Below the pieces are notes generated by a model that saw only the letters and a program-made list of their open reading frames with translations, ran no database searches and was not told where the DNA came from. A program made the position numbers and the translations under genes. Below, one piece after another: positions 3,234 to 49,640 of a stretch of DNA of 55,522 bases. Each line of letters starts with the position of its first letter. Position 1 is the stretch's first letter. Origin of the DNA: Rhodocyclaceae bacterium (GTDB lineage Bacteria > Pseudomonadota > Gammaproteobacteria > Burkholderiales > Rhodocyclaceae); the NCBI GenBank assembly GCA_030682175.1, contig JAUXOM010000003.1, positions 1 to 55,522 of the forward strand, written 5' to 3'.

Positions 3234-3811
3234 GCCAGTTCCACGGCTGAACGAACCCCCATTTTTTCGAAGATGTGGGCGCGATGGACTTCAACGGTAC
3301 GCATCGCGATCTGCAGATCGTCGGCGATCACCTTGTTGAGCTTGCCGGCCAGAATCCCGGTCATCACTTCGCGTTCGCGCTCGGTCAGGGTGGCAAAGCG
3401 TTCCTCGACCTCGGCCCGGTCGGCGTCTCGCCAGCGCCGACTTTCCTCTGACTTCAGGGCTTCGACCACGCGATCGACCAGTTCGTTGTCATTGAGCGGT
3501 TTCTCTATGAAATCGAATGCACCGCGCTTGAGTGCCTTGACTGCGAGTGGCACATCGCCGTGGCCGGTCAAAAAGATTACCGGCATGGCACAGCCAAGCG
3601 CGAGCAGTTGATCGTAAAGTTTTATGCCGGTCATCCCGGTCATGCGAATATCGAGAATAAGGCAGCCACTCATATCAGGACGGTAGTCGGCGAGAAAGGA
3701 TTCAGCCGAACTCCAGGCGCTTGACTGGATACCCCGAGTACTTAACAGCCAGGCCAGCGCATCGCGAATCGCCGCGTCGTCATCCACCAGATAGACCAGA
3801 CCTTTGTTCAT
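3194..3811 (-). CDS. FixJ/TtrR-family two-component response regulator
   Basis: Transcription factor with an N-terminal receiver (residues 1-120) and a C-terminal LuxR-type helix-turn-helix. The receiver has the acidic pocket D10-D12, phosphoacceptor D54 in LDIRMTGMTG, the T/K signature residues, and KPLNDNELVD at its end. The HTH core is LTEREREVMTGILAGKLNK. The kinase gene just upstream overlaps by 4 bp (ATGA), so this is a cognate pair. A copy of repeat R1 forms the inter-domain linker (ESRRWRDAD). Its 3' end overlaps the convergent tilS. Target genes are unknown; the adjacent liv transporter is a reasonable guess. Confidence 0.93.
   Translation of the reverse strand: MNKGLVYLVDDDAAIRDALAWLLSTRGIQSSAWSSAESFLADYRPDMSGCLILDIRMTGMTGIKLYDQLLALGCAMPVIFLTGHGDVPLAVKALKRGAFDFIEKPLNDNELVDRVVEALKSEESRRWRDADRAEVEERFATLTEREREVMTGILAGKLNKVIADDLQIAMRTVEVHRAHIFEKMGVRSAVELAQRLSAHAATGSR
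3422..3445 (+). repeat. R1 dispersed repeat, short form, copy A
   Basis: It contains CGCCAGCGCCGACTTT plus the flanking GGCGTCT. It lies antisense to the FixJ-like gene, in the linker between receiver and HTH. Confidence 0.6.
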
Positions 3812-5802
3812 GCCGGGGTTACCGGCAAGGATATATGAAAGATGCTACCGCCCTCGGGATTGGTTGCAAACCAGAGCCGGCCGTTATGTGCCTCGACCAC
3901 CGATCGGCAAATATTGAGGCCCACACCCAATCCTTCGCTCTTGGTCGTGTAAAAGGGCTCAAACAATCGCGTGGCCTCTTCAGCAGAAAAACCACAGCCT
4001 CGATCAGCAATCGAAATTAACACCTGGTGGTCTTTGCAGTGGGCGTTCACGGTAAGGGTTCTCTCTGCGGGCGGGGTCTGCCGCATCGACTCGATGCCAT
4101 TTTTCATAAGATTCAACAAGGCTTGTCCCAGCAGAATTCGATCAGCCTGGATGATGGGCAAGTCAGGGGCAATCTTGCGGATTATGCGTGTGTGCTGACG
4201 GCGCGTATCGACTTCAATAAGTACAATTAGATCAGAGAGCAATATTTCCAGGTTGCAGGTTTCTGATCTTGGTTCATGACGGCGCACGAAATCATAGATG
4301 CGCCGAATGATGCGACCCGCGCGCTGTGCCTGCTCCTGACATTTTGCCAGTGCACCATCAATTTCGCTGCTGGGAGCTCCTGCTGCGATCAGGTTGCGGC
4401 AACCCGCCGCGTAGCCGGAAATGGCCGACAGGGGCTGGTTGAGTTCGTGAGCCAGGCTTGAGGCCATTTCGCCCATGGTAATGAGCCGTGCACTGGCCTG
4501 CAGGCGTTCTTCCTGCTGTCGCGCCAATTCGGCGGACCGTACGCGTTCGGTGATATCCACCACCGAGCCCATCCAGCCGGTATGGCGTCCAGCGCTGTCG
4601 ATGAGAGGGGCTTCATGGATCAAGGCATCAAAGATCTCGCCATTGCGCCGTTTAAGTTTGATCTCGAACCCTTCGCTGGGAGCCTCTCCGGCCATTACCT
4701 TCGCATGCATGTTGCGGGTTTCGTCAATATATTCCTCCGCCCAATAAGGCATGGGCGGCATGCGGCCAATCAGTTCTTCGGCTGACCAACCCACCATGCT
4801 GCAAAAGGCTGGATTGATATAAGTAATCTGGCCTTGCAGATTGCGGGCGCGCAGTCCGGTTTGCACCGAGTCTTCCATCGCCTTGCGGAAGGCGACCTCT
4901 GTCTGCAGGGCTGACTCGACTAATAATCGTTGCTGGACATGGCGACGCAAGACCCACAGGCTGAATAATATCAATACCGCCAGCAATGCCAGTGCGGCCG
5001 AAATCAACCTGCCGGCCAGCGGGGTAGGTGACTGGTACGGTATGGCGCGCAAAATCAAACCATGGCCGGGCGGGTCAAACGGTATCTGGTAGCCGCTACC
5101 CGGGGCATCGGCGCCGACCTTGGAGCGTGAGCTGATCAACTGACTGAACTGATCGATGATCTCGACGCGATAGCGCTCGGCAAGCCACCAGGGCGCGGCG
5201 TTTTCAAGCAAGCGACGGATCGAATAAAAGGCCACCACGGTGCCGGCATGATGTCCATCAATGTACACCGGGACATGCACCCCGAAATGCCAGTCGCCTT
5301 GCTGCGTCTGATAGGGGGGGCTGTAGACGGCATGACCAAGGGAGCGGGCCATATGGCTCATCGTGTTTGATGGTTCTGGCCCCTGGTTTTCTCCCTTGGG
5401 CATAGCGGCCGGAATTGGCAGCAGGGCATGACGCACCTTGTCGTCCCGGTCAAGCCAGATGAGCTGATGAATGCTGGTGTCGCCGGTGACGAGGGTCCGT
5501 GCATGGGCATCGAAAACGCCAGGCTGCTGGATGCGCTGGGCGTCAAAGCGCCCCAGAACCTCTTCGTTATGGGTCAAATGGAACCCCAGACTTTGCTCTA
5601 GCCAGAGCATGTCGCTGATCAGCGTGGCGTGGCGTTCTTCCTGTTCGCTTTTTTCCGAAAACCACAGCAGAGCAATGACCGCCGCCACGAACAGAGTCAG
5701 GGCGAGTCGGGGCAGCCACCACAACATGCCGAAGTGTGGTGTTTTGGCGGCCCCGACCAGGTCGGCAGACAATATCGACTCGATGCTTTTTCCGACAGTC
5801 AT
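3808..5802 (-). CDS. Membrane PAS-domain sensor histidine kinase (FixL/DctB-like)
   Basis: 664-residue inner-membrane kinase. Transmembrane segments lie at about residues 28-48 and 268-290 and enclose a periplasmic sensor region of roughly 215 residues that looks Cache-like. A PAS domain follows (about 315-420) with the WMGSVVDITER exit motif. The H-box is MGEMASSLAHELNQPLSAIS with H452; the N-box begins at 564, the G1 box DRGCGF at about 600, and the G2 box GLGVGLNI at 624. Kinases with HELNQPL H-boxes include FixL, DctB and TtrS types. The response regulator overlaps its stop by 4 bp. The signal is unknown. The neighbouring liv genes upstream on the same strand suggest an organic acid or amino acid. 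Confidence 0.92.
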   Translation of the reverse strand: MTVGKSIESILSADLVGAAKTPHFGMLWWLPRLALTLFVAAVIALLWFSEKSEQEERHATLISDMLWLEQSLGFHLTHNEEVLGRFDAQRIQQPGVFDAHARTLVTGDTSIHQLIWLDRDDKVRHALLPIPAAMPKGENQGPEPSNTMSHMARSLGHAVYSPPYQTQQGDWHFGVHVPVYIDGHHAGTVVAFYSIRRLLENAAPWWLAERYRVEIIDQFSQLISSRSKVGADAPGSGYQIPFDPPGHGLILRAIPYQSPTPLAGRLISAALALLAVLILFSLWVLRRHVQQRLLVESALQTEVAFRKAMEDSVQTGLRARNLQGQITYINPAFCSMVGWSAEELIGRMPPMPYWAEEYIDETRNMHAKVMAGEAPSEGFEIKLKRRNGEIFDALIHEAPLIDSAGRHTGWMGSVVDITERVRSAELARQQEERLQASARLITMGEMASSLAHELNQPLSAISGYAAGCRNLIAAGAPSSEIDGALAKCQEQAQRAGRIIRRIYDFVRRHEPRSETCNLEILLSDLIVLIEVDTRRQHTRIIRKIAPDLPIIQADRILLGQALLNLMKNGIESMRQTPPAERTLTVNAHCKDHQVLISIADRGCGFSAEEATRLFEPFYTTKSEGLGVGLNICRSVVEAHNGRLWFATNPEGGSIFHISLPVTPA

Positions 5803-5870
5803 GAATTACGCATAATAATTGACGGCAAAACCGGCATTGGCAGAGGTTGCCAAGGTGCGGCGCTAATCAT

Positions 5871-6581: not shown

Positions 6582-7337
6582 TTACAGTTCGTCGCCCAGA
6601 TACGCGCTGCGCACAGCGGGGTGTTCGCGGACGAAGCTTGGCGTACCGCTGGCGATGATGCGACCGCTGACCAGTACCGAGACGCGATCGGCCAGGCGGA
6701 AGACGATGTCCATGTCGTGTTCCACCAGGAGCACAGTCTGTTCATTCTTCAGTGAGGCGATCAACCGGGTCATGTGCTCTGACTCTTCGGGTCCCATGCC
6801 GGCCATTGGCTCGTCCAGCAGGAGCAAGCGCGGACGGGTCGCCAGCGCCATGGCGAGTTCCAGCGCGCGCTGTTCGCCATGGGAGACGTCGCAGGCCAAT
6901 TGGCTGACTGCAGCGGCAAGACCTACGCGGACAAGCCTCTCTTCGGCCTCTTCGATCATCCGAACGTCGGCGCTGGCGGGACGCCAGAAACGCAAGCTTG
7001 AGCCCCAGTCGCGCCGCCGTGACTGGACTGCGAGCCGCACGTTTTCCAGCAACGACAGATGTGGAAAGACTTGCGTAATCTGATAGGACCGTGTGATGCC
7101 GAGTGCCACGCGGTCATGTGTGGAGCGCCGGGTGATGTCGGTCCCGGCAAACTGCAGGGTGCCTGCATCAGGCAGCAGCGCACCGGAAATCAGGTGGATC
7201 AGTGTGGTTTTTCCGGCACCGTTGGGGCCGATCAGGGCGTGTATTTCTCCCGCGGCAACCTCAAGGTCGACGCCATTCGTTGCCCACAAGCCGCCAAAGT
7301 GGCGCTTGAGCCCGGCGATTCCGAGTAAGGTATTCAC
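6582..7337 (-). CDS. livG: Branched-chain amino acid-type ABC transporter ATP-binding protein LivG
   Basis: First ATPase subunit of the same importer. Walker A is GPNGAGKT, the signature is the variant VSHGEQR, and Walker B is LLLLDEPMAGMG. The family-typical C-terminal EHDMDIVFRLADRVSVL segment is present. Two GTG starts are possible, 7352 and 7337. I chose 7337 because it gives a GTGA overlap with the livM stop, the coupling used across this operon, and leaves a family-like N-terminus. A copy of repeat R1 encodes RFWRPASADVR in the helical subdomain, a region that varies in this family. Confidence 0.9.
   Translation of the reverse strand: MNTLLGIAGLKRHFGGLWATNGVDLEVAAGEIHALIGPNGAGKTTLIHLISGALLPDAGTLQFAGTDITRRSTHDRVALGITRSYQITQVFPHLSLLENVRLAVQSRRRDWGSSLRFWRPASADVRMIEEAEERLVRVGLAAAVSQLACDVSHGEQRALELAMALATRPRLLLLDEPMAGMGPEESEHMTRLIASLKNEQTVLLVEHDMDIVFRLADRVSVLVSGRIIASGTPSFVREHPAVRSAYLGDEL
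6963..6985 (-). repeat. R1 dispersed repeat, short form, copy B
   Basis: On the minus strand it reads GGCGTCCCGCCAGCGCCGAC. It is in frame in livG and encodes WRPASADV. Confidence 0.6.
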
Positions 7338-8269
7338 TTCTGGCGGGTCCACAAGCCGGCCAGGCCACGCGGTGCGAACAACACTACGGCAAGCAGTGCG
7401 AGGCCGACATAGAAATGACTGTGTTCGGTAACGCGCCCCAGCACCTCTTCAAGCCCGAGCAAGGCGATGGCCCCCAGCATGCCGCCGAAACGCTGGCCGA
7501 CACCGCCCAGAATCACCATCACCAGCAGCATGCCCGATTGCGTCCAGTAAAGCTGACTGGGGCTGGCCATGCCGTTCTGATTGGCGAGTAATGCCCCGGC
7601 CAGACCGGCCACGGCTGAGCCGACAACAAAACAGACAAGCTTGATGTGTTGCACCGGGTAGCCCAATGCCGCCATGCGTGTTTCATTCTGTCGCACACCC
7701 GTGAGGGCACGGCCGTAGCGCGATGCGGCGAGGCGCTTGAGGGCAATCAGGCAGATTGACAGCAGCGCCAGAGTCACCCAGTAGAGCGTGGCATCGTTGG
7801 CAAGATCAAGGGGCGCCAGGGTCGAGCGTTGCTCCAGCGACAGACCGTCATCGCCACCGGCAAATTCAAGCGAGATCACCGAGTAATAGATCATCTGGGC
7901 GAACGCCAGCGTAATCATGATGAAATAGACGCCACGGGTACGCAGGGAAACCGCGCCGATCAGTAATGCAGCAAGTGCCGCTGCAGCGACCGCGACCGGC
8001 CAGGTGATCCACGCGGAGAAAATGCCGGCGGTCATCATCAGGGCGACCGCATATGCGCCGATACCGAAAAAAGCGGCATGGCCGAAGGCCACCATGCCGC
8101 CATAGCCGACGATGAAATTGAGGCCCGTCGCTGCCAGAGCAAAGATCAGCAGGCGCGTGGCGAAACCTATGTGGTAATCCTCGCCAAGCGCCTGGAGAAT
8201 GAGCGGCAATACGGCAGCGGCAACCAGCAATGCCACTTCGATCCGGGTAGCGGGGCGCACTTCTTTCAT
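7334..8269 (-). CDS. livM: Branched-chain amino acid-type ABC transporter permease LivM
   Basis: 311-residue polytopic inner-membrane permease with the LivM signatures GLNFIVGYGGMVAFGHAAFFGIGAY (split as GLNFIVGYGGM and AFGHAAFFGIGAY) and about eight to nine hydrophobic segments. The cytoplasmic coupling loop is recognisable (LTGVRQNETRMAALGYPVQ), as expected for the contact with LivG/LivF. It starts within the livH stop (ATGA, 8266-8269) and ends overlapping the livG start. Confidence 0.93.
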   Translation of the reverse strand: MKEVRPATRIEVALLVAAAVLPLILQALGEDYHIGFATRLLIFALAATGLNFIVGYGGMVAFGHAAFFGIGAYAVALMMTAGIFSAWITWPVAVAAAALAALLIGAVSLRTRGVYFIMITLAFAQMIYYSVISLEFAGGDDGLSLEQRSTLAPLDLANDATLYWVTLALLSICLIALKRLAASRYGRALTGVRQNETRMAALGYPVQHIKLVCFVVGSAVAGLAGALLANQNGMASPSQLYWTQSGMLLVMVILGGVGQRFGGMLGAIALLGLEEVLGRVTEHSHFYVGLALLAVVLFAPRGLAGLWTRQK

Positions 8270-9779: not shown

Positions 9780-9856
9780 TGGTTGCGGGGGCAAGATTTG
9801 AACTTGCGACCTTCGGGTTATGAGCCCGACGAGCTGCCAGACTGCTCCACCCCGCG
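9780..9856 (-). tRNA. tRNA-fMet (CAU), initiator
   Basis: 77-nt cloverleaf with encoded CCA. The acceptor arm begins CGCGGGG and ends CCCCGCA, giving the unpaired C1-A72 that marks initiator tRNA. The anticodon stem has three consecutive G-C pairs (GGG/CCC) around the loop CTCATAA with anticodon CAT. The T arm is GTTCAAATC. Confidence 0.96.
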
Positions 9857-9913: not shown

Positions 9914-10873
9914 TTATTGGATGGATAAAGCCGAATCGAGGCAAAGCCGCAATTCTTCCGCCCAGTCGGGCTGGCGCAGCGCAAAGTCGTGCTGCAGGCG
10001 GTCGCAGTTCAGCCGTGAATTGGCGGGTCGGCGGGCGGGCGTCGGAAAGTCGGCGCTGGCGATACGGCGCACTGCGGGGACTTTTTCAAGCCAGCCGCGC
10101 TCCGCGGCGTCTTCGACGATCGCCGAGGCGAACCCGTGCCACGATGTCGCGCCGGCGGCGGCGAGGTGATAAATACCCTGCTGGCCAGCGTGGCGGGCGA
10201 TGGCCAGGGCGGTGGTTTCGGCAATCATGCGGCTCCAGGTCGGGGCACCGGTCTGATCGGCGACAATGCGCAGTTCGTCGCGTTCCTTCGCTAGCCTGAG
10301 CATGGTGCGCAGGAAATTCTGGCCACGCAGCCCATACACCCAGCTGGTGCGGAATATCAGGTGGCGGCAGCCGCTGGCCTGTATCGCCTGTTCGCCAGCG
10401 AGCTTGCTCCGCCCATAGGTGTTGATGGGGCAGACCGGGTCGCTTTCAACATAGGGAATCGGGTTGCTGCCGTCGAAGACGTAGTCTGTCGAATAGTGGA
10501 TCAGCAAGGCATCCCGCTGTTTCGCCGCCTCGGCCAGAATGCCCGGCGCCGTGGCATTGATGGCGGTGGCGAGGTCAGCTTCGCTTTCCGCCTTGTCGAC
10601 TGCCGTGTAGGCTGCCGGATTGACAATGATGGCCGGATTGACTTCGCGCAACACGGCCCTGATCTGATCGGGATCCGTCATGTTGAATCGTGCTCGATCA
10701 AGCGCGATTACCGTGCCAAGCGGTTGCAGCGTACGCTGCAATTCCCAGCCGACCTGCCCATTAATGCCGGTAAGCAGGATAGGACGCCCCTCCGAAAACG
10801 CCGCTGCGCGACGTTCTCCCCCCAGGGGGCCAAGAAACACTTGGGGCGGCCCGGCGTGTTTCTTGAACGTCAT
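9914..10873 (-). CDS. rmlD: dTDP-4-dehydrorhamnose reductase
   Basis: Last step of dTDP-L-rhamnose synthesis: NADPH-dependent reduction of dTDP-4-keto-L-rhamnose in the cytoplasm. It is an extended SDR with TGINGQVG (35-42), STDYVFDG, the catalytic YGRSK and the C-terminal FPTPARRPANSRL motif. The start at 10873 overlaps the rmlC stop (ATGA), but it adds about 26 residues not found in family members. These are encoded by repeat R2, so the element seems to have landed on the original start and been taken into the reading frame. The gene would otherwise need an unseen start near residue 30. Confidence 0.95.
   Translation of the reverse strand: MTFKKHAGPPQVFLGPLGGERRAAAFSEGRPILLTGINGQVGWELQRTLQPLGTVIALDRARFNMTDPDQIRAVLREVNPAIIVNPAAYTAVDKAESEADLATAINATAPGILAEAAKQRDALLIHYSTDYVFDGSNPIPYVESDPVCPINTYGRSKLAGEQAIQASGCRHLIFRTSWVYGLRGQNFLRTMLRLAKERDELRIVADQTGAPTWSRMIAETTALAIARHAGQQGIYHLAAAGATSWHGFASAIVEDAAERGWLEKVPAVRRIASADFPTPARRPANSRLNCDRLQHDFALRQPDWAEELRLCLDSALSIQ
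10045..10068 (-). repeat. R1-like sequence in rmlD, copy C (uncertain)
   Basis: On the minus strand it reads GCCGTATCGCCAGCGCCGAC. It is in frame and encodes RRIASADF. Part of this overlaps the normally conserved (T/S)AD(F/Y)PTPA motif of RmlD, so the match may be partly coincidental. Confidence 0.35.
10798..10865 (+). repeat. R2 structured repeat, copy 1
   Basis: About 68 bp, closely similar to 36080-36148. It contains an imperfect hairpin (ACGCCGC/GCGACGT), a CCCCCCAGGGGG segment, and perfect arms CAAGAAACAC (10831-10840) and GTGTTTCTTG (10856-10865) around a 15-nt GC-rich loop. It covers the 5' end of rmlD. Confidence 0.75.
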
Positions 10874-13384: not shown

Positions 13385-15169
13385 CTAGGCCGCCAGCACG
13401 CGGTTCTTGCCGGCGCGCTTGGCCAGATACATGGCGCCGTCGGCACGCTGGATGGCTTCCGCAGCCTGTTCGTCTGCACCAAGCTCGGCAACGCCGCAAC
13501 TGAAGGTGATGAGCACCTTTTCGTTGTTGTTCAGGAAAAAGCGCCGGGTCAGTTCGCGCTGGACGCGCACCATGGCGCCGACGGCGCTCTCCAGGGCCGT
13601 GTCCGGCAGGATGACGACAAATTCCTCGCCACCATAGCGGGCCAGCGTGTCCTCGGGGCGGATGGCTTCGTGCACTACCTTGGCCAGATGCACCAGTGCC
13701 GCGTCGCCTGCCGCATGCCCCAAGGTATCGTTGATCTTCTTGAAATTGTCGATGTCAAGGAGCGCCAGACACAATTTGCTGTTGTGGCGCCGGGCGCGGC
13801 CCACCTCGGTTTCGAGGGCGTCATCCATGCCCTTGCGGTTGAGTGTGCCGGTCAGCGGGTCGTGGCGCACCAACTGACTGGCATTGGCCAGTTCCTGCTG
13901 CAGCCGCTCGACTTCACGTTCGGCGTCACTGACCTTGCTGCGCATCAGGAACAGTTCGTCACGCGAGCGCTGGGCATTGAGCTGAATGATCCGTGTTTCA
14001 TGCATGACTTCCTGCAGAACTGCCGACAGGTCGGCGATATCGTGGGCCTTGCTGACCTTGTCTGCACACTGCGCGATCTTGTCGTGGTAGTCACTGGTTG
14101 TTTCGGAAAAGTCGCCCAACCGGTCGACAAAGGTGGTCAGCATCTGCTTGATCTGGTCCCTGGCTTCGAGCAGGCTTTTCTTGAGGGCACCCTGCTTGAA
14201 GATCACATCCTTCATGCGCCGCTCGACATCGTCAAGGCGCCGCAGATTGAGCGGTTGATCGACCAGTGCAAGCACCACGGCGATCTGGCCCTGCAGCAAT
14301 TGGTCATCGAGGACCAGTTCGTTGATGTTGTCGATGACCAGGTGCAGCAGGTGCAGCAATCCCGACTTCAACTCAGCCTGATCTTCGACCACGAAATTGA
14401 GGCGATAGCTGAAACGCTTGATATTCGCGACAAAAGCAGTGATGTCATCGGTATTGCGGGCGTTGCGCGCGGCGCCGGCCAGGCCGATCGCCTCTTTGCT
14501 CAGTTCCGGGTGGTCGGCCAGTATGGTACTGATTGAGCTCTCGAGCAGTTGTGCCAGCAAGTCCAGCAAATCGCCACTTGCCCCCTTGGCAGGCTCACCT
14601 GGACGGGCGACGGTAGAGCTTGCCGCCTCGGCAAAAGTCGGCGCTGGCGGGGCGGCGTGGGAGTCGCCCGCATCGGCAGCCATGCCATCGGTCAGCGAAC
14701 TTTCCAGCCCGGCCGACTGCGACCAGGTCTTCAGCAATCCCTGCAGGCGGGCGTGGAGCAGATCCGGTGCGGCTGATGAGGCAAGCACATGCTCTAGTGC
14801 CTCGCGCTTGCGTGCCGGGGTCAGGTCGGCCTGGCGGGCCTCCAGTCGTGTCACCAGGTCGTGAATCAGCACTGACCAGTTGGGCGGCTCTGCCGCCACT
14901 TTATTCAGCAGATCAACCAGTGCCGCATTGAGGCTGTTCCAGTTTTTATCGCTGATCGCACTGTCAATCTGCCGCGCGAAGCGCAATTGCTCCTGGGTGC
15001 TGCGCGGCAGGGCGCCGGCAAGTGCCTTGAGCGATTTTTCTGGAAAGTCCTCGGCGATCGCCGTGCCGGCAATTTCATTGTAGAAAGCCCGATAGTTGTC
15101 GGGCGTCGGTGGCTGACGTTGCAGGGCGAGTCTTTTCAGCGTCTCGCGTGCGGTTTCTGAAGGATTCAT
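13385..15169 (-). CDS. Diguanylate cyclase (GGDEF) with long helical N-terminus
   Basis: 594 residues with no membrane segment. The C-terminal GGDEF domain has an intact active site GGEEF (513-517) and an RPED inhibitory I-site (504-507) at the spacing seen in PleD. It should therefore make c-di-GMP and be product-inhibited. The first 420 residues look largely helical, with a probable coiled coil just before the GGDEF domain ([20 protein letters not shown]), similar to N-termini of SiaD/YfiN-unrelated soluble cyclases. Repeat R1 encodes the linker APPAPTFA (173-180). It lies 4 bp after a NarL-type regulator and directly before rmlB, suggesting signalling tied to envelope sugar synthesis. Confidence 0.93.
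14632..14657 (-). repeat. R1 dispersed repeat, short form, copy D
   Basis: On the minus strand it contains CCGCCAGCGCCGACTTTT. It is in frame in the diguanylate cyclase gene and encodes APPAPTF in a linker. Confidence 0.65.
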
Positions 15170-15173
15170 GTGC

Positions 15174-17589: not shown

Positions 17590-19197
17590 TTATTTCTGGC
17601 GCTGATAGAGAAACCAGCGCTCGTTGCGATCACTGGGACGGTGGCCTTGCCAGCGCTCTGTCCAGCCGGTGGGCGCTTTCTGGTTTTTGTCGCCGGCGAC
17701 GAGACGCCAATCGCATTCGCGGGTCTGCGTCGGGGGAATTGTGCGTAGGCCAATGAAATAGTCGAGCGAAGCCCGCTGTGACGCTCCGATGCCGACGCGC
17801 TCGAGGCAAGCGACTTTTTGCGGCAGTGCCGCCCGCAGCGAAAGCGTAACCGCGCGATACGATTTGCCGTGGTCGATCCACGATAGCCAGAGCATGGCCA
17901 CTAGGACCCACAACAGTGTCGTGCCTGACGCCCAGCGCAGGGTAGGGCGCCAACTGGCGCGGCGCAGAGCCCAGGACAGCATCCAGGCGAGGGTGATTAT
18001 TACGGCGATCACAATGGAATATGCCGGGTAATCGACAACATGACCCGGTGCCAGCTTTTCGAAGTTATTGGCGATCTTGGGCGGCCAGCCGAAAGCCTGT
18101 GCGCTGGCGCCCAGCCAGATCAGCACGGCAAAGATGCTGAAGGTCGTCATGCCGAACCAGTCGAAGGCATTGGCGGCGCCGCGCCGCAGGCGGTCCACGC
18201 CAGATGCGGCAAGCAGCGTGAGCGGCAGCAACAAGGGAATGACTGCCAGTGTGCGTGACGACCCGGTCATGAACCATGCCAACGCAAGCAGCATGCCGAA
18301 CACGGGAATGGCCAGTGAGGCCATCTGGTGCCGTTGCAGCCAGAGGCTCCACGCCGCGATGGGTAGTACCGGCCAGCTTGCCCAGGCCAGTTGCTCGATG
18401 TGCTTTGCTTCCGGCATGCCGCGGGCCAGCGTGGCTTCGGCGAACTCGTTTTGCCACCACTGCAGCCATTGCGGCCACAGTTCAGGTGCCTGACTGGACA
18501 GGATGACCGGCCAGGCGGCGATCAGTGGCAGGGCAATCAGCAATGCCAGAGCCAGGCTTTTCCAGTCACGGCGAATAATCGGCGCTGGCAGGACGGCGCC
18601 GGCCATGATCAGGCCGACCAGTCCATGGGCCGGGAAGGCCAGGCCGAGGCCGACGCCGAGCAGCACCGCGCCGCGTAATGGCGCGCCGTGCGCCGGTCCC
18701 TGCAGGATCAGGCCGCCGCCCCAGTAGGCGAGGGCGGCAAAGGCGAGTCCGGCAACAGCGGGCTGGGCTTCGTGGAAGGGCAACAGCAGGCCAAGCGTGC
18801 CAATCGCCAGGAGCGGCGCGGAGCGGCCGGCGGCTTCACCGTGAAATGCGCGCGCGGCACCGGTCAGGGCGAGCAGGAACAGTGCGCCGAAGAGGGTGGT
18901 CGCCAGGCGCGCGGCATTGTGGAAATCGAGCAGACTACCGAACAGCTGCCCCAGCAAGGCGGCTACCCAATGGTACAGCGGTGCGGTGTGCGGCCATGGC
19001 TCGCCGGCGATATGGGGGAACAGCCAGTTGCCGTGACTGACAAAGCCGTGGGCGATGCCGATATGGATGGCATCTTCGGTTTTCCAGGGATCGTGTCCGA
19101 CGACGCCCACCAGCAAAAAAATGGCGCCCAGCAACAACAGTGCTGTGGCGGGCAAGCGCGGGGAAACGCCCTGATTATGGAATGGGCCGGAAATCAT
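17590..19197 (-). CDS. ArnT/PMT-like membrane glycosyltransferase
   Basis: 535 residues with about 11-12 hydrophobic segments. It belongs to the GT-C superfamily (GT39/83, ArnT-like), which transfers a sugar from an undecaprenyl- or polyprenyl-phosphate donor on the periplasmic side. The first periplasmic loop has the acidic motif in GHDPWKTEDAIHIGIAHGF and the PHTAPLYHWVAALLG segment typical of the family. The C-terminal periplasmic tail is soluble. The acceptor is unknown: lipid A, glycan or protein are all possible. No arn genes are nearby. An R1 repeat encodes VLPAPII in a loop. Confidence 0.88.
   Translation of the reverse strand: MISGPFHNQGVSPRLPATALLLLGAIFLLVGVVGHDPWKTEDAIHIGIAHGFVSHGNWLFPHIAGEPWPHTAPLYHWVAALLGQLFGSLLDFHNAARLATTLFGALFLLALTGAARAFHGEAAGRSAPLLAIGTLGLLLPFHEAQPAVAGLAFAALAYWGGGLILQGPAHGAPLRGAVLLGVGLGLAFPAHGLVGLIMAGAVLPAPIIRRDWKSLALALLIALPLIAAWPVILSSQAPELWPQWLQWWQNEFAEATLARGMPEAKHIEQLAWASWPVLPIAAWSLWLQRHQMASLAIPVFGMLLALAWFMTGSSRTLAVIPLLLPLTLLAASGVDRLRRGAANAFDWFGMTTFSIFAVLIWLGASAQAFGWPPKIANNFEKLAPGHVVDYPAYSIVIAVIITLAWMLSWALRRASWRPTLRWASGTTLLWVLVAMLWLSWIDHGKSYRAVTLSLRAALPQKVACLERVGIGASQRASLDYFIGLRTIPPTQTRECDWRLVAGDKNQKAPTGWTERWQGHRPSDRNERWFLYQRQK
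18573..18598 (-). repeat. R1 dispersed repeat, short form, copy E (diverged)
   Basis: On the minus strand it reads GCCGTCCTGCCAGCGCCGAT. It is in frame in the glycosyltransferase gene and encodes AVLPAPII in a predicted cytoplasmic loop. Confidence 0.5.
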
Positions 19198-23753: not shown

Positions 23754-25109
23754 CTAGTCCGCAATAGTCGGCGCTGGCGGGACGGCGTCTCCCGTGGTCC
23801 CCGCGCCGGACTTGCGCCCACTGCGCCGCCGACGCTTTTTCGGGGCGCTGTCCGGTTTCAGCATTTCTTCGCGTTCCGCGTTGCCCGCTTCCTGGAAGGC
23901 CAGCCACCAGTCGGCGAGTTCCTGCGGCGCTTCGCCGCTCTTCGCGCGCAGCAGCAAAAAGTCCCACGCGGCGCGAAAGCGCTGCTGTTCGATGAGACGG
24001 AAGGGCGCGCGGCCGCCGCGCTTCTCGAAGCGCGGTTGCAACAGCCAGATGTCCTTGATGTCGCCAGCGATGCGGCGCGTGATCGCCAGCTTTTCTCCCT
24101 GAGTGTCGAGGACTTCGTCCATCGCGGTGTGCAGCGCGGGCACCGACGGTTCGCCGTTTTTTTTGCGTATTTCCCAGTTGGCGAGCACTTCGTGCCACAA
24201 CAGGGTGGCGAACAGGAAACCCGGCGAGGTGCGTTTATCGGCGCGGATGCGCAGATCCGTATCGGCCAGGGCCAGCATGACGAATTTCTCGCCCAGCGGT
24301 TGTTCGCAAATGACATCGAGCAGCGGCAGGAGGCCCTGGTGCAGGCCATCTTCGCGCAGGCGCTTCACGCATTCGACGGCATGACCGGAAAACAGCAGCT
24401 TGAGCATCTCGTCGAACAGGCGTGACGAGGGCACGTTTTCGATCAGCTCGGCCATTTCACGGATCGGCGCCTGCACCTGCGGGTCGAGGCGCAGGTCGAG
24501 CTTGGCGGAAAAGCGCACGGCGCGCAGCATGCGCACCGGATCTTCGCGGTAACGGGCGCGCGGGTCGCCGATCATGCGCAGGGTTTTTCTTTGCAGATCG
24601 CGCACGCCGTGGTGATAGTCGAACACCGCGCCGCTGGTCGGATCGTAATAGAGCGCGTTGATGGTGAAGTCGCGCCGCGCGGCGTCGTCTTCCATGCTGC
24701 CCCAGACGTTGTCGCGCAGCACGCGGCCGTGCTCGTCCTTCAGGGTGTCTGCGTCATGGGCGGCGCGAAAGGTCGACACCTCAAGGGTTTCGCCACCCTG
24801 CATGACGTGCACGATCTGAAAGCGGCGGCCGATGATGCGCGAGCGACGGAACAGCTGCCGCACCTGGTCGGGCGTGGCATCGGTGGCGACGTCGTAATCC
24901 TTGGGCGTGAGGCCGGCGATCAGGTCACGTACCGCGCCACCAACGACATAGGCGTGGTGGCCGGCCTGTTGCAGGGTCTCGCAGGTGCGGCGGGCGCCAG
25001 GTGAGACACCATCGGGACGGATGCCGTGGCGCTCGGCCGGGATGATCTCGACGGGATGGGGTGAGGGTTCGCCGCGCTTGAAGATGCGGCGCAAAATCTT
25101 GCGGATCAT
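23754..25109 (-). CDS. pcnB: Poly(A) polymerase I
   Basis: 451-residue class II nucleotidyltransferase that adds 3' poly(A) tails to RNA and promotes its decay. The catalytic core is AYVVGGAVRDLIAGLTPKDY with the DVATDATPDQV carboxylates. The RRDFTINALYYDP and RMLRAVRFSAKL segments of the polymerase head/neck follow. CCA-adding enzymes are related, but the length, the basic N-terminus and the basic tail (KKRRRRSGRKSG) fit PcnB. Repeat R1 encodes the last residues (AVPPAPTIAD) including the region just before the stop. It sits upstream of folK, as in many gamma- and betaproteobacteria. Confidence 0.95.
   Translation of the reverse strand: MIRKILRRIFKRGEPSPHPVEIIPAERHGIRPDGVSPGARRTCETLQQAGHHAYVVGGAVRDLIAGLTPKDYDVATDATPDQVRQLFRRSRIIGRRFQIVHVMQGGETLEVSTFRAAHDADTLKDEHGRVLRDNVWGSMEDDAARRDFTINALYYDPTSGAVFDYHHGVRDLQRKTLRMIGDPRARYREDPVRMLRAVRFSAKLDLRLDPQVQAPIREMAELIENVPSSRLFDEMLKLLFSGHAVECVKRLREDGLHQGLLPLLDVICEQPLGEKFVMLALADTDLRIRADKRTSPGFLFATLLWHEVLANWEIRKKNGEPSVPALHTAMDEVLDTQGEKLAITRRIAGDIKDIWLLQPRFEKRGGRAPFRLIEQQRFRAAWDFLLLRAKSGEAPQELADWWLAFQEAGNAEREEMLKPDSAPKKRRRRSGRKSGAGTTGDAVPPAPTIAD
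23763..23787 (-). repeat. R1 dispersed repeat, short form, copy F
   Basis: On the minus strand it reads GCCGTCCCGCCAGCGCCGAC. It forms the C-terminal codons of pcnB (VPPAPT) just before the stop. Confidence 0.65.
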
Positions 25110-29924: not shown

Positions 29925-31673
<1,749 letters not shown>

Positions 31674-33075: not shown

Positions 33076-34154
33076 GTGTCAGCGTACGCCGGCCATTCCT
33101 GCTCGCATTGGCGTTTTCGCTGATGCTGCATCTGGTTCTTCTGCTGACTCCGGGCTGGGGCATGCCTCTGGTGGATGAGGCCGCGAATCTGCCGTCGCTC
33201 GATGCGAAGCTGCTGCCGCTGGCGCAGACGGCCGCGCCGGTCATGCCGCAGCCCGTGCCGGTGAAACGGCGTACCCCGCAAGAAAAACCTGCCGCGCTGC
33301 CGCAGACTTCCGGCGCTCCGCCGGCGAGTACCGATGCGCCGGTTGCGGAAAACCTGGCGCAAGCCCCTGAAGCACTACCGACCGCTCAACCGGACAAACC
33401 GCAGCCTGACGCCGTCCCCGATGACGCGGCGGGCCAGGCGGGCGCCGTACCGCCAGTCCCACAGGGATTTCCTTCGGTCACGCCGACTTTTGACCCGGCA
33501 GTTGCCCGTGCCTGGCCGCAGCGCGGCCGCATCCTTTTCGAGGTGACACGCGGCGACAGCAACTTTGTCGTTGGCCAGGCCGAACACCGCTGGCAGCACG
33601 ACGGTGCGACCTATCAACTGCGTGCTGTCACCGAAACCGTCGGCATCGCCGCATTGCTCAGGCCGGCGATGGTTGTCCAGGAAAGTCGCGGCAATCTGGT
33701 GGCGACCGGCCTGCAGCCGCTCGAGTTCAAGAATGAACGGGATGGCAAGCGCAAACTGTTGTTGCGCTTCGACCCGGTGCAGGGGCGCCTGACCCTGGAT
33801 AGTGGCGCGGAAGTGGCCATGAACGAACCGGTGCAGGATCTGCTGTCGATGCTCTATCAACTCAGCACGATGCCGCACGACGCGCAGGAATTTGCGATAA
33901 CGGTGGCGACCGGGCGCAAGCTGGCGCGCCATGTGGTCAGGGTGGCCGAAACGACCCGGCTCGAAACCCCGTTCGGGTCGCGCAGCGTGCTGCATCTCAT
34001 CATGCCACCCGCCAATGGCGTGACAAACGATGATTCCACCGAGGTCTGGCTCGACATCGCCACCCGCCTGCCGCTCAAGATTCGCCATCGCGACCGCAAG
34101 GGCGAAGTTTATGACCAGACCGCGATTGCGGTCGAACTGGACAATACACAATGA
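33072..34154 (+). CDS. DUF3108-type periplasmic protein with proline-rich linker
   Basis: 360 residues. A single N-terminal membrane anchor (about 9-27) is followed by a proline/alanine-rich region to about residue 145. A beta-rich C-terminal domain matches my memory of DUF3108 (LFEVTRGDSNFVVGQAEHRW, LEFKNERDGKRKLLLRFD, EVWLDIATRLPLKIRHRD). DUF3108 proteins are widespread next to purN in betaproteobacteria and have no settled function. A long-form R1 repeat encodes [17 protein letters not shown] (125-141) at the end of the linker. The start overlaps the purN stop (ATGA), and the stop overlaps the next gene the same way. Confidence 0.85.
   Translation: MSVSVRRPFLLALAFSLMLHLVLLLTPGWGMPLVDEAANLPSLDAKLLPLAQTAAPVMPQPVPVKRRTPQEKPAALPQTSGAPPASTDAPVAENLAQAPEALPTAQPDKPQPDAVPDDAAGQAGAVPPVPQGFPSVTPTFDPAVARAWPQRGRILFEVTRGDSNFVVGQAEHRWQHDGATYQLRAVTETVGIAALLRPAMVVQESRGNLVATGLQPLEFKNERDGKRKLLLRFDPVQGRLTLDSGAEVAMNEPVQDLLSMLYQLSTMPHDAQEFAITVATGRKLARHVVRVAETTRLETPFGSRSVLHLIMPPANGVTNDDSTEVWLDIATRLPLKIRHRDRKGEVYDQTAIAVELDNTQ
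33446..33493 (+). repeat. R1 dispersed repeat, long form, copy J
   Basis: It is in frame in the DUF3108 gene, encoding [15 protein letters not shown]. Ends match the short form, with a 24-bp insert between CCGCCAG and CGCCGACTTTTG. Confidence 0.75.
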
Positions 34155-36063: not shown

Positions 36064-36079
36064 GAAGACTCCCCCCGCA

Positions 36080-36148
36080 TGCGCCGCTGTGCGGCGCTCT
36101 CCCCCCAGGGGGCCAGAAAACACTTGGGACGGCCCGGCATGTTTTCTG
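36080..36148 (+). repeat. R2 structured repeat, copy 2
   Basis: Arms CAGAAAACAC (36114-36123) and ATGTTTTCTG (36139-36148) have the same 15-nt loop spacing as copy 1, preceded by a perfect GCGCCGC/GCGGCGC hairpin (36081-36097). It fills the gap before the MscS gene and includes its likely ATG. Confidence 0.75.
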
Positions 36149-37455
36149 AGAACACCGGCAAACAGATCGGTGGCTTGCTGATCGAACTCTGGCGCGACCT
36201 GCAACAACCGGCCGTGCTGTGGCAGATCGGCGTGCTGGCGGCCTGTTTTGTGCTGGCCTGGGGGTTTGATCGCTGGCTGGGACGGCGTGTGGCCAGCGGT
36301 GCGGAGAGCGATGTCGTGCCCGAGGGTTCCGCCCATGCCTTCGGTCGGCGCGGACTCAAGCGGCTCGGCTTGCCCGCCGTCATGCTGCTGCTGGTGCTGG
36401 CGGCGCGGCCGCTCCTCGCCCAGTGGCACAGCGTCAATCTGCTGACGCTCGCCATTCCGCTCTTGATCTCGCTGATGGTAATCCGCGCGGTGATGTTCAT
36501 CGTGCGTCACAGCTTCACTGGCAGTGCGCCCTGGCTCGCCGGTTTCGAACGCACGCTGGCGTTCATGGTCTGGAGCGTGGTGGCGCTCCACATTCTGGGT
36601 TTGTTGCCGGAAGTGATCGACCTGATGCAGGGCGTGAGCTTCAGTCTCGGCAAGTCAAAACTCGACCTCTGGCTGATTCTGCAAGGCCTGGGCGTCGTGC
36701 TGGTCACCCTGTTGGTGGCGCTGTGGATCAGCGGCGTTATCGAGGCCAAGCTACTGAGTGCGCGCGGGCTCGACGGCAACCTGCAGTTGGTGTTCGGCCG
36801 CCTGGCGCGCGCACTGCTCATCCTGCTGGCGGTGCTGATCGGCCTGCCGCTGGTCGGCATCGACCTGACCATGCTGTCGGTGTTCGGCGGCGCGCTGGGT
36901 ATCGGCTTGGGCTTCGGCCTGCAAAAGATCGCGGCGAATTATGTGTCTGGCTTCATCATCCTGCTCGACCGCTCGATCCGCATCGGCAACCTGGTCGCGA
37001 TTGGCGCGGGTGCCGCGGGCACCGCGCGCGGCATCGTCACGTGCATTACCACGCGCTTCACGGTGCTGCGCAGCCTGGCCGGCGTCGAGATGATCGTCCC
37101 CAACGAAATGCTCGTCGGTTCGATCATCACCAATGAAACCTTCACCGATCCCAAGGTGCGTCTCACCACGCAGGTGCAGGTCGCCTACGACACCGATCTG
37201 GAACGCGCGCTGGCCGTCATTGTCGCCGCGGCGCGCGCCCAGCCGCGCGTGCTGGCTGACCCGCCGCCGAAGGGCTTTGTCACCGCCTTTGCCGATTCGG
37301 GCATCAATCTCGAAATCGGTTTCTGGATCGCCGATCCGGAAGAAGGCTCGATGCAGATCAAGTCGGACATTCATCTGGCGATCTGGAAGGCCTTCAAGGC
37401 GGCCGGCATCGAGATTCCCTTCCCGCAGCGTGAGGTCAGGCTGCTGCGGAATTAA
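36139..37455 (+). CDS. MscS-family small-conductance mechanosensitive channel
   Basis: 438 residues with five to six hydrophobic segments before the channel core. The pore-lining helix and beta domain show FGGALGIGLGFGLQKIAANY followed by VSGFIILLDRSIRIGNLVAI, the MscS signature. It should release solutes across the inner membrane during osmotic downshock. The N-terminus has more membrane helices than E. coli MscS, more like YnaI/YbdG-type relatives. The start is taken as 36139 (MFSENTGKQIGG). An alternative at 36079 would add 20 residues encoded wholly by repeat R2. Confidence 0.92.
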   Translation: MFSENTGKQIGGLLIELWRDLQQPAVLWQIGVLAACFVLAWGFDRWLGRRVASGAESDVVPEGSAHAFGRRGLKRLGLPAVMLLLVLAARPLLAQWHSVNLLTLAIPLLISLMVIRAVMFIVRHSFTGSAPWLAGFERTLAFMVWSVVALHILGLLPEVIDLMQGVSFSLGKSKLDLWLILQGLGVVLVTLLVALWISGVIEAKLLSARGLDGNLQLVFGRLARALLILLAVLIGLPLVGIDLTMLSVFGGALGIGLGFGLQKIAANYVSGFIILLDRSIRIGNLVAIGAGAAGTARGIVTCITTRFTVLRSLAGVEMIVPNEMLVGSIITNETFTDPKVRLTTQVQVAYDTDLERALAVIVAAARAQPRVLADPPPKGFVTAFADSGINLEIGFWIADPEEGSMQIKSDIHLAIWKAFKAAGIEIPFPQREVRLLRN

Positions 37456-37489
37456 AAGTCGGCGCTGGCGGTACGGCGCCGAAGGCGCC
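37454..37489 (-). repeat. R1 repeat copy K (intergenic) plus GGCGCC palindrome
   Basis: An R1 short form lies at 37454-37479, right at the mscS stop. It runs into GGCGCC-GAA-GGCGCC (37475-37489). This is the only R1 copy outside a coding region, between two convergent genes, and it may act as a hairpin there. Confidence 0.6.
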
Positions 37490-46353: not shown

Positions 46354-46355
46354 GC

Positions 46356-46823: not shown

Positions 46824-46824
46824 G

Positions 46825-47736
46825 TCACTGCGCCGTCCCGCCAGTCCCACGGGGATTTCCTTCGGTCACGCCGACTTTTGCGTCGGCTTCCTTGAGCGAG
46901 ATGTCGCTGATCAGCGCGACATAGCGCGAGGTCATGCCCATGAAGCGCAGGCGATCCGGCCCCGCCACCGCGCCGCTCCATTCGAGGCCACCACCACTGT
47001 GATCGGTAAAGTGCCAGCTCGCCATGGCCTTGGCGAAGGCCGGCTCGGTGCGCTTGACCACGATGCGGCAGTCGAGGCGGCCAGCGAGCGCAACGTCGTC
47101 GGCGACGCGGTCGTCGAGTACCACCTTGCCCATGTCGAGTTCGATCACGCGATTGACCAGGGTCGACACCTCGTCGATGCGATGGCTGGAAATCAGCATG
47201 GTCGCAACCGCGGCGCGCTCGGCCAGCAGTTCGAAGAAGATCTTGCGCGCCGCGGGATCGAGGTTGGCGGCCGGCTCGTCGAGCACCAGCACCTGCGCGT
47301 CGCGGCCGAGTGCGATGGCGATCAGCAGTTTCTGTTTCATGCCACCGGACAACCTGACGAACTGGCGCGCGACTACCCCATCAACATCGAGGCCAAGCCG
47401 CCTGGCCAGGTCGAAAATGCGCTGGGGATCGCTATTGCACAGCGAGGCGGCAAAGTCGATCAACTGGCCCACCGGCATTTTCAATGGCGGCGGCAGTTGC
47501 GGCACAAAACCGATCATGCCGAGCACGGCAGCGCGCTCGGCGCGCGGCGAGCGGCCTTCGATGGTGACCAGGCCAGCGTGGTTGTATTCACCGAGCAGGC
47601 AGCGGATCAGCGTGGTCTTGCCGGCGCCGTTGGAGCCGATCAGCGCAACGCGCTCCCCCAGCCCGATCTCAAGGTCGATGCCATCGAGCACGCGGGCGCG
47701 GCGGAATGTCTTGGCGACGTTCTGGAATTTGATCAT
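46825..47736 (-). CDS. nosF: NosF, ABC ATPase for NosZ maturation
   Basis: 303-residue cytoplasmic ATPase partner of NosY. It has Walker A GSNGAGKT (34-41), signature LSGGMKQK, Walker [14 protein letters not shown] and the H-loop SSHRIDE. The C-terminal extension typical of NosF is present. The last 18 residues ([17 protein letters not shown] and the stop region) are encoded by an antisense long-form R1 repeat, so the element has replaced or extended the natural end. It directly follows nosH. Confidence 0.95.
46831..46881 (+). repeat. R1 dispersed repeat, long form, copy L
   Basis: It is antisense to nosF and encodes its extreme C-terminus ([17 protein letters not shown]). Its end is within a few bases of the nosF stop and the nosL start. 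Confidence 0.75.
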
Positions 47737-48723
47737 TCAGAGTAGTTTCGAAAGGCCCTTCACTTCGAAGGTCAATGACCCCGTCGGGCAGGTATCAACG
47801 CACAGTCCACAGCGCGTGCAGTCGGGGCCGATCGGCACCTCGATATCGACGGCGCGGCCCTTGATGACAACGTCAAGCACATGCGGCACCAGGCAGACCT
47901 TGCGGCAGTCGCCCTCGTGGAAACAGCCGGCCAGCTTGTACTTGATGCGCAGCGGCGAAATGATGCCGACCACGCCATAGGTTAGGCCGATCGGGCAGGC
48001 GTAGCGGCACCACGCGCGCTTCGAGAAAAACACCTCGAACACCAGCAGCGCCAGCACCCACAGCAACGCCAGGCCGGGGCCGTAGATCAGCGCGCGCGAG
48101 AGGATGCCGGTCGGTGAGATTGCCTCGAACACCGTGTAACCGGTGGCGGCGGCGAGCACGGCGAAGATGACCCAGAACACGCTGCGCAAGCGGCGATCGA
48201 TGGTCTGGTCGGTAACCAGCTTTTTCTTCACCAGGTAGAGATGGAGTTTTTCGGCCCACTCGGCCAGCAGGTGGTAGGGGCAGACCCAGGAACAATAGGC
48301 GCGGCCGCCGAACAGTATCCACAATACCAGCACCGTGCCGGTGCCGATCAACAGATTGGTGATGATGTGCTTGTGCGCGAGCATCACCTGCAGCGCGGAA
48401 TTGAGGTCGACGAGGTGGAAGCCGATGAAACGCGAAGCGGTCAGCGCGCCTTCGAGCAACTGGATGTCGAAGTAGAAGGAGACGGTGAATAGCAGGTTGA
48501 CGATAAGCAGCGTCGCCCAGCGGCGGTTGCGCCACTTGGTCGACTTCACCTCGTGGGCCCGCAGGTGCGCCTTGGTCGCCTGCAGGTCGGCCTTGTTGGT
48601 CATGCGCTTGAGCTGATGCGCCTGCTGCGCCCGCGCGCTGATCTGTTCGGGCTTCTTCGGCGCGCGGCCGAACATGATCATGATCTGCTCGCGGAAGCGG
48701 CGCTTGAGCACGTTCTCGCTCAT
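47737..48723 (-). CDS. nosH: NosH, NapH-type membrane iron-sulfur protein
   Basis: 328 residues, four to five membrane helices, with CSWVCPYHLL and CRYACPIGL cytoplasmic motifs. A C-terminal ferredoxin-like part has CFHEGDCRKVC and CTRCGLCVDTCP. With NosG it is thought to oxidise menaquinol and pass electrons toward NosZ in clade II systems. The ATG at 48723 overlaps the nosG stop (ATGA) and is preferred to a GTG 12 bp upstream. Confidence 0.94.
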   Translation of the reverse strand: MSENVLKRRFREQIMIMFGRAPKKPEQISARAQQAHQLKRMTNKADLQATKAHLRAHEVKSTKWRNRRWATLLIVNLLFTVSFYFDIQLLEGALTASRFIGFHLVDLNSALQVMLAHKHIITNLLIGTGTVLVLWILFGGRAYCSWVCPYHLLAEWAEKLHLYLVKKKLVTDQTIDRRLRSVFWVIFAVLAAATGYTVFEAISPTGILSRALIYGPGLALLWVLALLVFEVFFSKRAWCRYACPIGLTYGVVGIISPLRIKYKLAGCFHEGDCRKVCLVPHVLDVVIKGRAVDIEVPIGPDCTRCGLCVDTCPTGSLTFEVKGLSKLL

Positions 48724-49640
48724 GATGTCTTCCACACCTCGCGCGGCACAATTTCAATGGCGGCTGGCTCCACCGGGCAGATCATTTCGCAGACACCGCA
48801 GCCGACGCAGGGTTCGTGCACCACCGGCGATTTCCTTTGCGTGCCGTTGGGCGCGAACACGGTCTCGATGGAAATCGCACCCTTGATCGGACACTCGCGC
48901 ACGCAGAGGTCGCATTCGGCAACATCGTAGGGGTGCGCGGCGACCTTGATCGGTTTCCAGCGGTCTACGGCCATGTAGCGGAGCCGGCCCTGGAAGGCAG
49001 GGCCGCGCGCCTGACCCTTGAAACCCTTGCCCTGGATGGCGAGACAGGCCTCGGGCCGCGTCAGACGCGCCACGCCGATGCGCTCGGCGAGATTGAGCGT
49101 CGGCTCGGCGTCCTGTTCCTTGGCCAACAGGATGGGCTTGGCCGCCATCGCGGCACCGGCCCGCACCGTCATGAAGTCCGGCTTTTCGTAGGTGAGCGAG
49201 CCGGTCGGACAGGCGAGGATGCACTGCACGGCGTCGCAGGAAAAATCGCAAGCCTGCGCCCGGGCGTCGATGTAGGGCGCGCCAACACCAATGCCGTCGA
49301 CGAGATCGGCCAGCTTGATGGCCGCCACCGGACAGACCTGCACGCACTGGCCGCACTTGATGCAGCTCGCCAGGAAGTCCTTCTCGTCGAGCGCGCCGGG
49401 CGGCCGCAACCGCTGCTTCTGCGCATAGACCAGCGGCAGGAAGCCGGACAGCGCCGCGCCGAGCACGCCGCCGGTAAGCAAGATGGTGCGCAGCACGCGC
49501 CGCCGCGCCTGCTGACGGCGCTCCTTGGACAACGGCGCCGTCCCCATTTCACGCGGCGATCCGGCTGACGCCGTCCCGCCAGCGCCGACTTTTGGTTGCG
49601 GCGTGGTGGAATCCTCTGGAAGCTGCTCTGCGTCGCTCAT
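48720..49640 (-). CDS. nosG: NosG, NapG-type ferredoxin
   Basis: 306 residues with an N-terminal membrane segment (RTILLTGGVLGAALSGFLPL) and four 4Fe-4S cysteine clusters: CIKCGQCVQVCP, CDFSCDAVQCILACP, CDLCVRECP and CVGCGVCEMICP. It is the partner of NosH in quinol oxidation. The gene overlaps the nosD stop by ATGA (49637-49640). The first 30 residues are unusual: repeat R1 in antisense encodes KVGAGGTASAG before the arginine-rich membrane-entry region (KERRQQARRR). Confidence 0.94.
   Translation of the reverse strand: MSDAEQLPEDSTTPQPKVGAGGTASAGSPREMGTAPLSKERRQQARRRVLRTILLTGGVLGAALSGFLPLVYAQKQRLRPPGALDEKDFLASCIKCGQCVQVCPVAAIKLADLVDGIGVGAPYIDARAQACDFSCDAVQCILACPTGSLTYEKPDFMTVRAGAAMAAKPILLAKEQDAEPTLNLAERIGVARLTRPEACLAIQGKGFKGQARGPAFQGRLRYMAVDRWKPIKVAAHPYDVAECDLCVRECPIKGAISIETVFAPNGTQRKSPVVHEPCVGCGVCEMICPVEPAAIEIVPREVWKTS
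49568..49594 (+). repeat. R1 dispersed repeat, short form, copy M
   Basis: GCCGTCCCGCCAGCGCCGAC plus TTTTGG, antisense to nosG, encoding KVGAGGTA near the NosG N-terminus. Confidence 0.7.

Follow-up and report, generated by a model that had tools for sequence, protein, structure and literature searches.

A 25-nt repeat maintained at the DNA level across genomes of Rhodocyclaceae, and its possible role as a DNA uptake sequence

The DNA uptake sequences (DUS) of the Neisseriaceae and the uptake signal sequences (USS) of the Pasteurellaceae are short DNA words dispersed in many copies, and the introduction of a 2025 paper names only two families with such uptake specificity (PMC12616744). The passages of the literature on which we draw put the length of DUS at up to about 13 nt and the total extent of USS at up to 32 nt (PMC12616744), count almost 1,500 DUS per Neisseria genome, and describe a frame or orientation bias of uptake sequences inside genes (PMC2346458). 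In the sections cited here, DUS are conserved at 97% identity compared with an average of about 85%, occupy permissive regions, and, where absent, face single mismatches or, often, gaps (PMC2397512), while their dialects follow phylogeny around a constant core (PMC3630211). We examined a stretch of 55,522 nucleotides from a Rhodocyclaceae bacterium (hereafter the window; GenBank assembly GCA_030682175.1, contig JAUXOM010000003.1, or C27 in a draft genome of 3.49 Mb), in which a dispersed short repeat had been predicted from the letters alone. Our analysis shows that this repeat is far larger in scale than the window showed, and we hold with very high confidence that it is a DNA signal maintained at the sequence level. 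On comparison with the known systems, we favor, with moderate confidence, the reading that it would be a genome-wide self-recognition signal, a DUS evolved separately in one clade of Rhodocyclaceae. We found no report of the motif in searches of the open-licence PubMed Central literature, where no paper turned up that names both DNA uptake sequences and Rhodocyclaceae or that prints the core; it may have been printed elsewhere.

Alignment of the copies defines a 25-nt motif, CGCCGTCCCGCCAGCGCCGACTTTT, of about 33 bits and with no conservation beyond its ends; it is non-palindromic, and its consensus is free of stop codons in every frame. Allowing up to three mismatches, CCGCCAGCGCCGACTTTT matches the window ten times, whereas 100 shuffles that preserve dinucleotides give 0.15 matches on average, and an origin by chance or composition is ruled out by these shuffles and by the reversed and permuted controls given below. 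The original prediction was right in describing a dispersed short repeat within genes, in several frames and both orientations, and all 13 of its candidate copies are real (Table 1): ten are the 25-nt motif, and the three at 30621, 33446, and 46831 are a long form, in which the motif halves are split by 24 nt between CGCCAG and CGCCGAC. Its frame tally of six VPPAPTF-like copies, three ASADF, two KVGAGGTA, and one ESRRWRDAD also holds, and we agree that all copies except 37454 are inside genes. The copy at 49569 is placed outside genes by our simple gene caller, yet it lies inside a frame (48720-49790) with Fer4 Pfam matches. The MutL gene alone holds three of the window copies (30516, 30621, and 31070).

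Beyond the window, copies were counted in the whole draft genome and in a sample of 434,239 bases, composed of the window and stretches of four other contigs, on which a weight matrix was trained and in which genes were called with a simple caller of our own (coding fraction 0.88). Across the whole genome, a 16-nt core with up to two mismatches is found at 679 places (333 on the plus and 346 on the minus strand) compared with 4 for the reversed pattern, and the 25-mer with two positions open and up to three mismatches is found 582 times, with 0 for its reversed control; the genome carries about 600-700 copies. In the sample, 100 copies score at least 13 bits with the matrix (0 for the reversed matrix and a mean of 0.3 for ten permuted matrices), and lowering the threshold to 10 bits adds only three, so that degraded copies form almost no tail. 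Fifty-nine of these copies lie wholly in genes, 38 are intergenic, and three straddle a gene end; spacers are thus enriched in copies (38 of 97, for an 11.9% share of the sequence, p = 7e-12). The 59 in-gene copies comprise 29 sense and 30 antisense and use six frames (VPPAPTF 18, RRxASADF 10, RQRRL 1, KVGAGGTA 20, SRRW 5, and KSALAGR 5).

The spacing of copies is random, with a coefficient of variation of 0.95 compared with 0.98 in simulations (95% range 0.81-1.19). Strong strand polarity was not found when one contiguous stretch of 59-120 kb was taken from each of seven other carrier genomes; the plus/minus counts are 13/10 in G017, 10/11 in G026, 4/4 in G011, 9/12 in G019, 7/11 in G079, 3/7 in G009, and 11/9 in G012 (G numbers denote genomes, C numbers contigs, and L numbers stretches). 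Spacing and strand counts together rule out a strongly polar site. A weak strand tendency might nevertheless exist, as 30 copies are on the plus and 16 on the minus strand of our contig C7 (p = 0.054) and 59 of our 100 copies are on the strand opposite the local G excess (p = 0.09). Folding of the 25-nt motif is no better than that of shuffles (z-scores of 1.07 and -0.26 for the two strands), which rules out a palindromic or structured element, and a known Rfam family is likewise ruled out, with a gathering-threshold scan of the window finding rRNA and tRNA only.

The evidence that the DNA itself is what is conserved comes from the same sites in relatives, for which we pooled two sets of sequence, the surroundings of the window's MutL and GGDEF genes in nine same-genus genomes and further stretches of three of these genomes. 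In 197 comparisons (which are non-independent) at 46 motif sites, the orthologue carries a motif of at least 24 bits in 120, one of 14-24 bits in 11, and less than 14 bits in 66. Where comparisons are gap-free, identity is 0.877 in the motif and 0.783 in its flanks, while random windows give 0.780 and 0.781. Only 95 of the 197 motif comparisons are gap-free, as opposed to 2779 of 3164 controls, which indicates that the motif sites are permissive. Measured across the motif plus 75 nt of either flank, the length difference in the 66 absences is zero in 25 and otherwise varied, with no common value, and a mobile insert of fixed length is ruled out by this variation. A difference of about 27 nt is seen at one site only, that of G012 in MutL (eight comparisons, 26-27 nt), and at MutL 31070 several species depart from the motif by substitutions, with length unchanged.

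A codon-position test compared eight in-gene short copies of the window with 17 same-genus genomes, and seven sites gave gap-free comparisons, 24 in total, of which 11 come from MutL 31070. Third codon positions agree in 170 of 201 cases in the motif compared with 2772 of 4564 in the flanks (0.846 vs. 0.607; nominal p = 4e-13, the bases being non-independent), and this excess is present in 21 of the 24 comparisons and, on average, at six of the seven sites. First positions (0.836 in the motif, 0.857 in the flanks) and second positions (0.901 and 0.895) show no difference. Since third positions are kept and first and second positions behave as in the flanks, it is a DNA word that is maintained and not a peptide; conservation at the protein level is ruled out by the same comparison. 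The GGDEF linker copy scores at least 20 bits in 15 of 18 whole same-genus orthologues, our own included, and is missing from G016, G017, and G006. In MutL, 24 carrier genomes (42 kb) have 35 motifs in total, spread over 21 of these genomes, while 18 non-carriers have none; MutL was singled out because the window had copies there, and a bias toward repair genes is seen in MutL only. These copies recall the preference of uptake sequences for genome maintenance genes, which is cited in a passage of PMC2346458. According to the original prediction, distant orthologues with the same residues in place would speak against the repeat. Such a case exists in part, as G026, from another genus, has the motif at MutL 31070; the copy is in that genome's own dialect, which makes a recent insert less likely and does not count against the repeat.

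There are dialects around a largely constant core. We profiled copies of at least 14 bits by the matrix of our genome in five of the six carrier genera described below (all but g70), with ten stretches of G187 picked around listed plus-strand matches and those of G002 picked to include its tandem arrays. Position 1, which is C in our consensus (80%), is T in 81, 72, and 60% of copies in the same-genus genomes G017, G002, and G011, respectively. G026 has CCAGCACCGAC in 71% of its copies, and G187, from a third genus, has T at position 8 in 83% and G at position 10 in only 52%, often with A instead; positions 7-8 are looser in G079 and G019. Even the most constant stretch, CCAGCGCCGACTTT, is not invariant, given that position 21 is C in only 64-68% of copies in G002 and G017.

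The distribution of the motif is sharply bounded. With up to one mismatch in the core, 17 of 18 other genomes of the genus have 203-568 copies, and G006 has 2. A survey of the family (199 genomes, 68 genera) identifies 21 carriers in six genera (g1, g2, g9, g62, g70, and g88), with 56-482 exact cores per carrier and at most 10 in each of the other 178 genomes, and none of 368 other genomes from the class is above 4 near copies of the 25-mer. Carriers have such near copies in the hundreds (582 in our genome, 524 in G009, 797 in G026, 741 in G079, 674 in G019, 546 in G141, and 359 in G187), whereas low counts are found in G006 (0), G032 (1), G020 (0), G035 (2), and G123 (9); the count of G064 (41) falls between carriers and non-carriers. 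In a quick, midpoint-rooted tree of one gene, MutL, from 43 genomes, built without those with a fragmented MutL (such as G002, G014, G015, G018, G024, G034, and G206), the carrier state needs three changes, apparently readable as one gain with losses in G006 and G032. The practically copy-free G006 is of the same genus, 2.3 Mb in size and 87% complete, and has a long MutL branch. In G123, which is outside the carrier clade, five of the nine near copies lie on one strand within about 41 kb (G123:C1:1461265-1502267), a cluster suggestive of import from a carrier.

A scan of named genomes returned at least 110 stretches, mostly from uncultured Rhodocyclaceae, with others from metagenome-assembled genomes (MAGs) of Sulfuritalea, Sulfurisoma, and Propionivibrio. 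Among the matches listed, the closest DNA to our sample is that of Rhodocyclaceae MAGs (85-87%), and contigs labelled Thiobacillus, Rubrivivax, Sideroxyarcus, Lysobacterales, and Planctomycetales have one copy each. Contigs labelled Gammaproteobacteria and Gallionellaceae (L085, L104, and L106) have 3-5 copies in 8 kb; the out-of-family contigs may be mis-binned, mislabelled, or real carriers. Seventeen stretches from a viral collection have the exact motif (L031-L047), and one of them, L031, with six copies in 8.6 kb, may be host DNA.

Some copies have been elaborated. The 24-nt insert of the long form, TCCCACGGGGATTTCCTTCGGTCA and its variants, has a fixed internal position in the motif and a variable loop (TCCC-loop-GGGA), and about 17 long forms (one degenerate) were counted by eye in our 434-kb sample. 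The orthologues of the long forms at 33446 (in G009) and 30621 (in G015) are short. No long form was found in 60 kb of G009; elsewhere, there is one in G005 and there are two in 100 kb of G026 (one with a diverged right half), which suggests an insert that predates the genus. Some copies have 21-nt hairpin units, CGCCGTACCCCATGCGGGGCA and TTTCATACCCGCTGCGGGGCA, ahead of their left half or in its place; examples lie in our contig C7 near 126418-137436 and in G009:C20 near 59456. In the tandem arrays of G002, which have a period of 54, an imperfect inverted copy comes after the motif (G002:C1 at 566168-566399, 580733-580802, and 590699-590822, and elsewhere, L255 and L269-L273), and our own genome has tandem arrays of period 42 and 45.

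An origin of copies in place or by recombination, permissive sites, no strong orientation preference, upkeep at the DNA level, dialects, and apparent wholesale losses are found together, as in DUS, and from this combination we infer an uptake sequence. A component of the type IV pilus would bind the motif on external DNA, and motif-bearing DNA would be preferentially taken up and recombined. This bias would both retain old copies and spread new ones, which would arise in linkers, gene ends, and spacers through substitution or recombination; once a lineage had lost the receptor or competence, its motif copies would disappear. Secondary sequences that accumulated on the signal may account for the 24-nt insert and the hairpin units.

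A number of observations weigh against a function in uptake. All 21 genomes tested have ComEC, every non-carrier among them included, and it therefore does not discriminate between carriers and non-carriers. The search for a receptor yielded none: FimT-like matches (E <= 0.01) are found in 31 of 31 genomes and do not track the motif, and the FimT-like minor pilin of our genome has only 34% identity in G009, the closest relative and one that shares the motif, and about 60% in G002, G004, and G017. The signal itself departs from DUS in its length (25 nt and about 33 bits compared with up to about 13 nt) and copy number (600-700 compared with almost 1,500), and inverted pairs, which are frequent in DUS and USS (common, not strictly defining), are rare, at one of the five pairs closer than 300 nt in the 434-kb sample. 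The orthologues that lack the motif mostly align with gaps (60 of 66), and site 30516 is an exception to the codon-position result, its third positions being no better conserved. Near copies occur outside the carrier clade in G064 (41) and G097 (19), and, among the matches listed, out-of-family labels include Gammaproteobacteria RIFOXYD12 with five copies in 8 kb, Gallionellaceae UBA2239 with three, and a glass-biofilm gammaproteobacterium with three. Finally, the 24-nt insert and the arrays of 42-54 nt are unpredicted by the uptake idea. In addition to these points, prepilins are found in 7 of 7 genomes tested, and non-carriers have them too. Searches of the PDB with two of our pilins gave ordinary pilins and, among the matches listed, none named ComP. 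The best FimT-like pair between our genome and G009 is G000:C132:42339-42887 and G009:C4:264103-264603, which has 34% identity though MutL has 90%, and this gap suggests replacement or fast divergence of the putative pilin.

Other explanations would keep the motif as a DNA word and dispense with uptake. We regard as a tentative possibility that it is a genome-wide self-mark of an as yet undescribed kind, kept by a drive other than uptake through the pilus, such as recombination or repair with a bias toward copying the strands that bear the motif, with the 24-nt sequence being parasitic at an exact internal position. We consider it unlikely that the motif is a site for a chromosomal protein (in nucleoid organisation, segregation, recombination, or repair), kept for chromosome function and not for uptake. 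Conservation at the DNA level and presence by genus would fit any sequence-specific binder, the motifs in MutL recall repair (MutL was preselected, though), and a possible weak strand tendency, on contig C7 and relative to the G excess, would point the same way; however, the contiguous stretches show no strong polarity and spacing is random. Chi and KOPS are short and polar, and we know of no chromosomal site with 25 strong positions in hundreds of copies.

The gaps in most of the orthologues that lack the motif are also what would be expected of a miniature mobile element, of the rickettsial palindromic element, repetitive extragenic palindrome (REP), or miniature inverted-repeat transposable element type, inserting in frame at permissive places. 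One G012 MutL site resembles a 27-nt insertion, and the long form and tandem arrays show that length changes happen. The absence of a fold and of a constant length difference, the conservation of third positions, the in-place substitutions at MutL 31070, and the near absence of degraded copies nonetheless make such an element quite improbable. REP and bacterial interspersed mosaic elements (BIME) are extragenic palindromes mobilised by RAYT transposase; they were rejected on the 59 of 100 copies wholly in genes and the lack of a fold, and no search was made for the transposase. An account that treats the motif as a by-product of biased amino-acid or codon use in Pro/Ala- or Gly-rich linker stretches can draw on the favored small-residue frames (VPPAPTF and KVGAGGTA, 18 and 20 of the 59), but it is almost certainly wrong, given the excess over the reversed pattern, the use of six frames and of intergenic sites, the conservation of third positions, and the scarcity of exact cores in the 178 other genomes of the family.

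Table 1. Copies of the repeat in the window, with the genes or frames that hold them
Form	Position	Strand	Context
25-nt motif	3421..3445	+	antisense in response regulator gene (3194-3811 -), read ESRRWRDAD
25-nt motif	6962..6986	-	sense in branched-chain amino acid ABC ATPase gene (6582-7352 -)
25-nt motif	10045..10069	-	sense in RmlD-domain gene (9914-10873 -)
25-nt motif	14633..14657	-	linker of GGDEF protein (13385-15169 -)
25-nt motif	18574..18598	-	sense; gene of 535-aa protein (17590-19197 -), hydrophobic by eye, no Pfam match at 1e-5
25-nt motif	23763..23787	-	C-terminus of poly(A) polymerase gene PcnB (23754-25109 -)
25-nt motif	30516..30540	-	MutL linker (MutL 29925-31673 -)
Long form	30624..30672	-	MutL linker; G015 orthologue is the short form
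25-nt motif	31070..31094	-	in MutL, read RRLASADF
Long form	33443..33491	+	DUF3108 gene; G009 orthologue short, by exactly 24 nt
25-nt motif	37454..37478	-	overlaps stop codon of frame ending at 37455
Long form	46831..46879	+	C-terminal end of ABC ATPase gene (46825-47736 -)
25-nt motif	49569..49593	+	antisense, N-terminal part of 4Fe-4S protein frame (48720-49790 -); 45.1 bits, sample maximum

Among other features of the window, Rfam annotates rRNA at 1-1190 (the end of a 23S gene, and a 5S gene) and tRNA genes at 9783-9856 and 17429-17501. A second dispersed repeat family, with CTTGGGGCGGCCCGGCG, is present at 10788-10866 and 36071-36149, and its 12-mers occur more than 20 times in the 434-kb sample.

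If the repeat is indeed an uptake sequence, it would be the third such system and one of separate origin; its signal spans 25 nt, its carriers belong to six genera, and it has apparently been lost twice in nature. Such a system would allow tests of how specificity in uptake originates, of whether drive or selection spreads uptake sequences, and of which residues of the pilin recognize the signal. Recombination and foreign DNA in uncultured environmental bacteria could also be traced with it.

Among known systems, rickettsial palindromic elements, with which the original prediction had compared the repeat, are larger palindromic, hairpin-forming inserts of a fixed-length unit. The likeness lies in repeats within open genes without frameshift; the motif here is unfolded, has no fixed insertion length, keeps its third positions, and has dialects, and the comparison is unsupported. 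HIP1 of cyanobacteria is likewise a dispersed, highly iterated oligonucleotide that occurs in genes, but it is an 8-nt palindrome. With the USS of Pasteurellaceae, the repeat shares a dispersed motif and an intragenic frame or orientation bias, and it resembles them in overall extent (up to 32 nt in USS), whereas USS have a 9-nt core with weaker AT-rich flanks, as opposed to 25 contiguous and nearly all strong positions here, and differ in family and sequence. The DUS of Neisseriaceae are also unrelated in sequence and belong to another family, but they are alike in having at least hundreds of copies, both within genes and between them, that are conserved above their surroundings, occupy permissive sites, often face gaps where absent, and form dialects with a constant core that follow phylogeny. 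The analogy with DUS holds for all sequence features tested except frequent inverted pairs, and, by this comparison, the repeat would be a third uptake-sequence system, independently evolved, with a signal longer than DUS.

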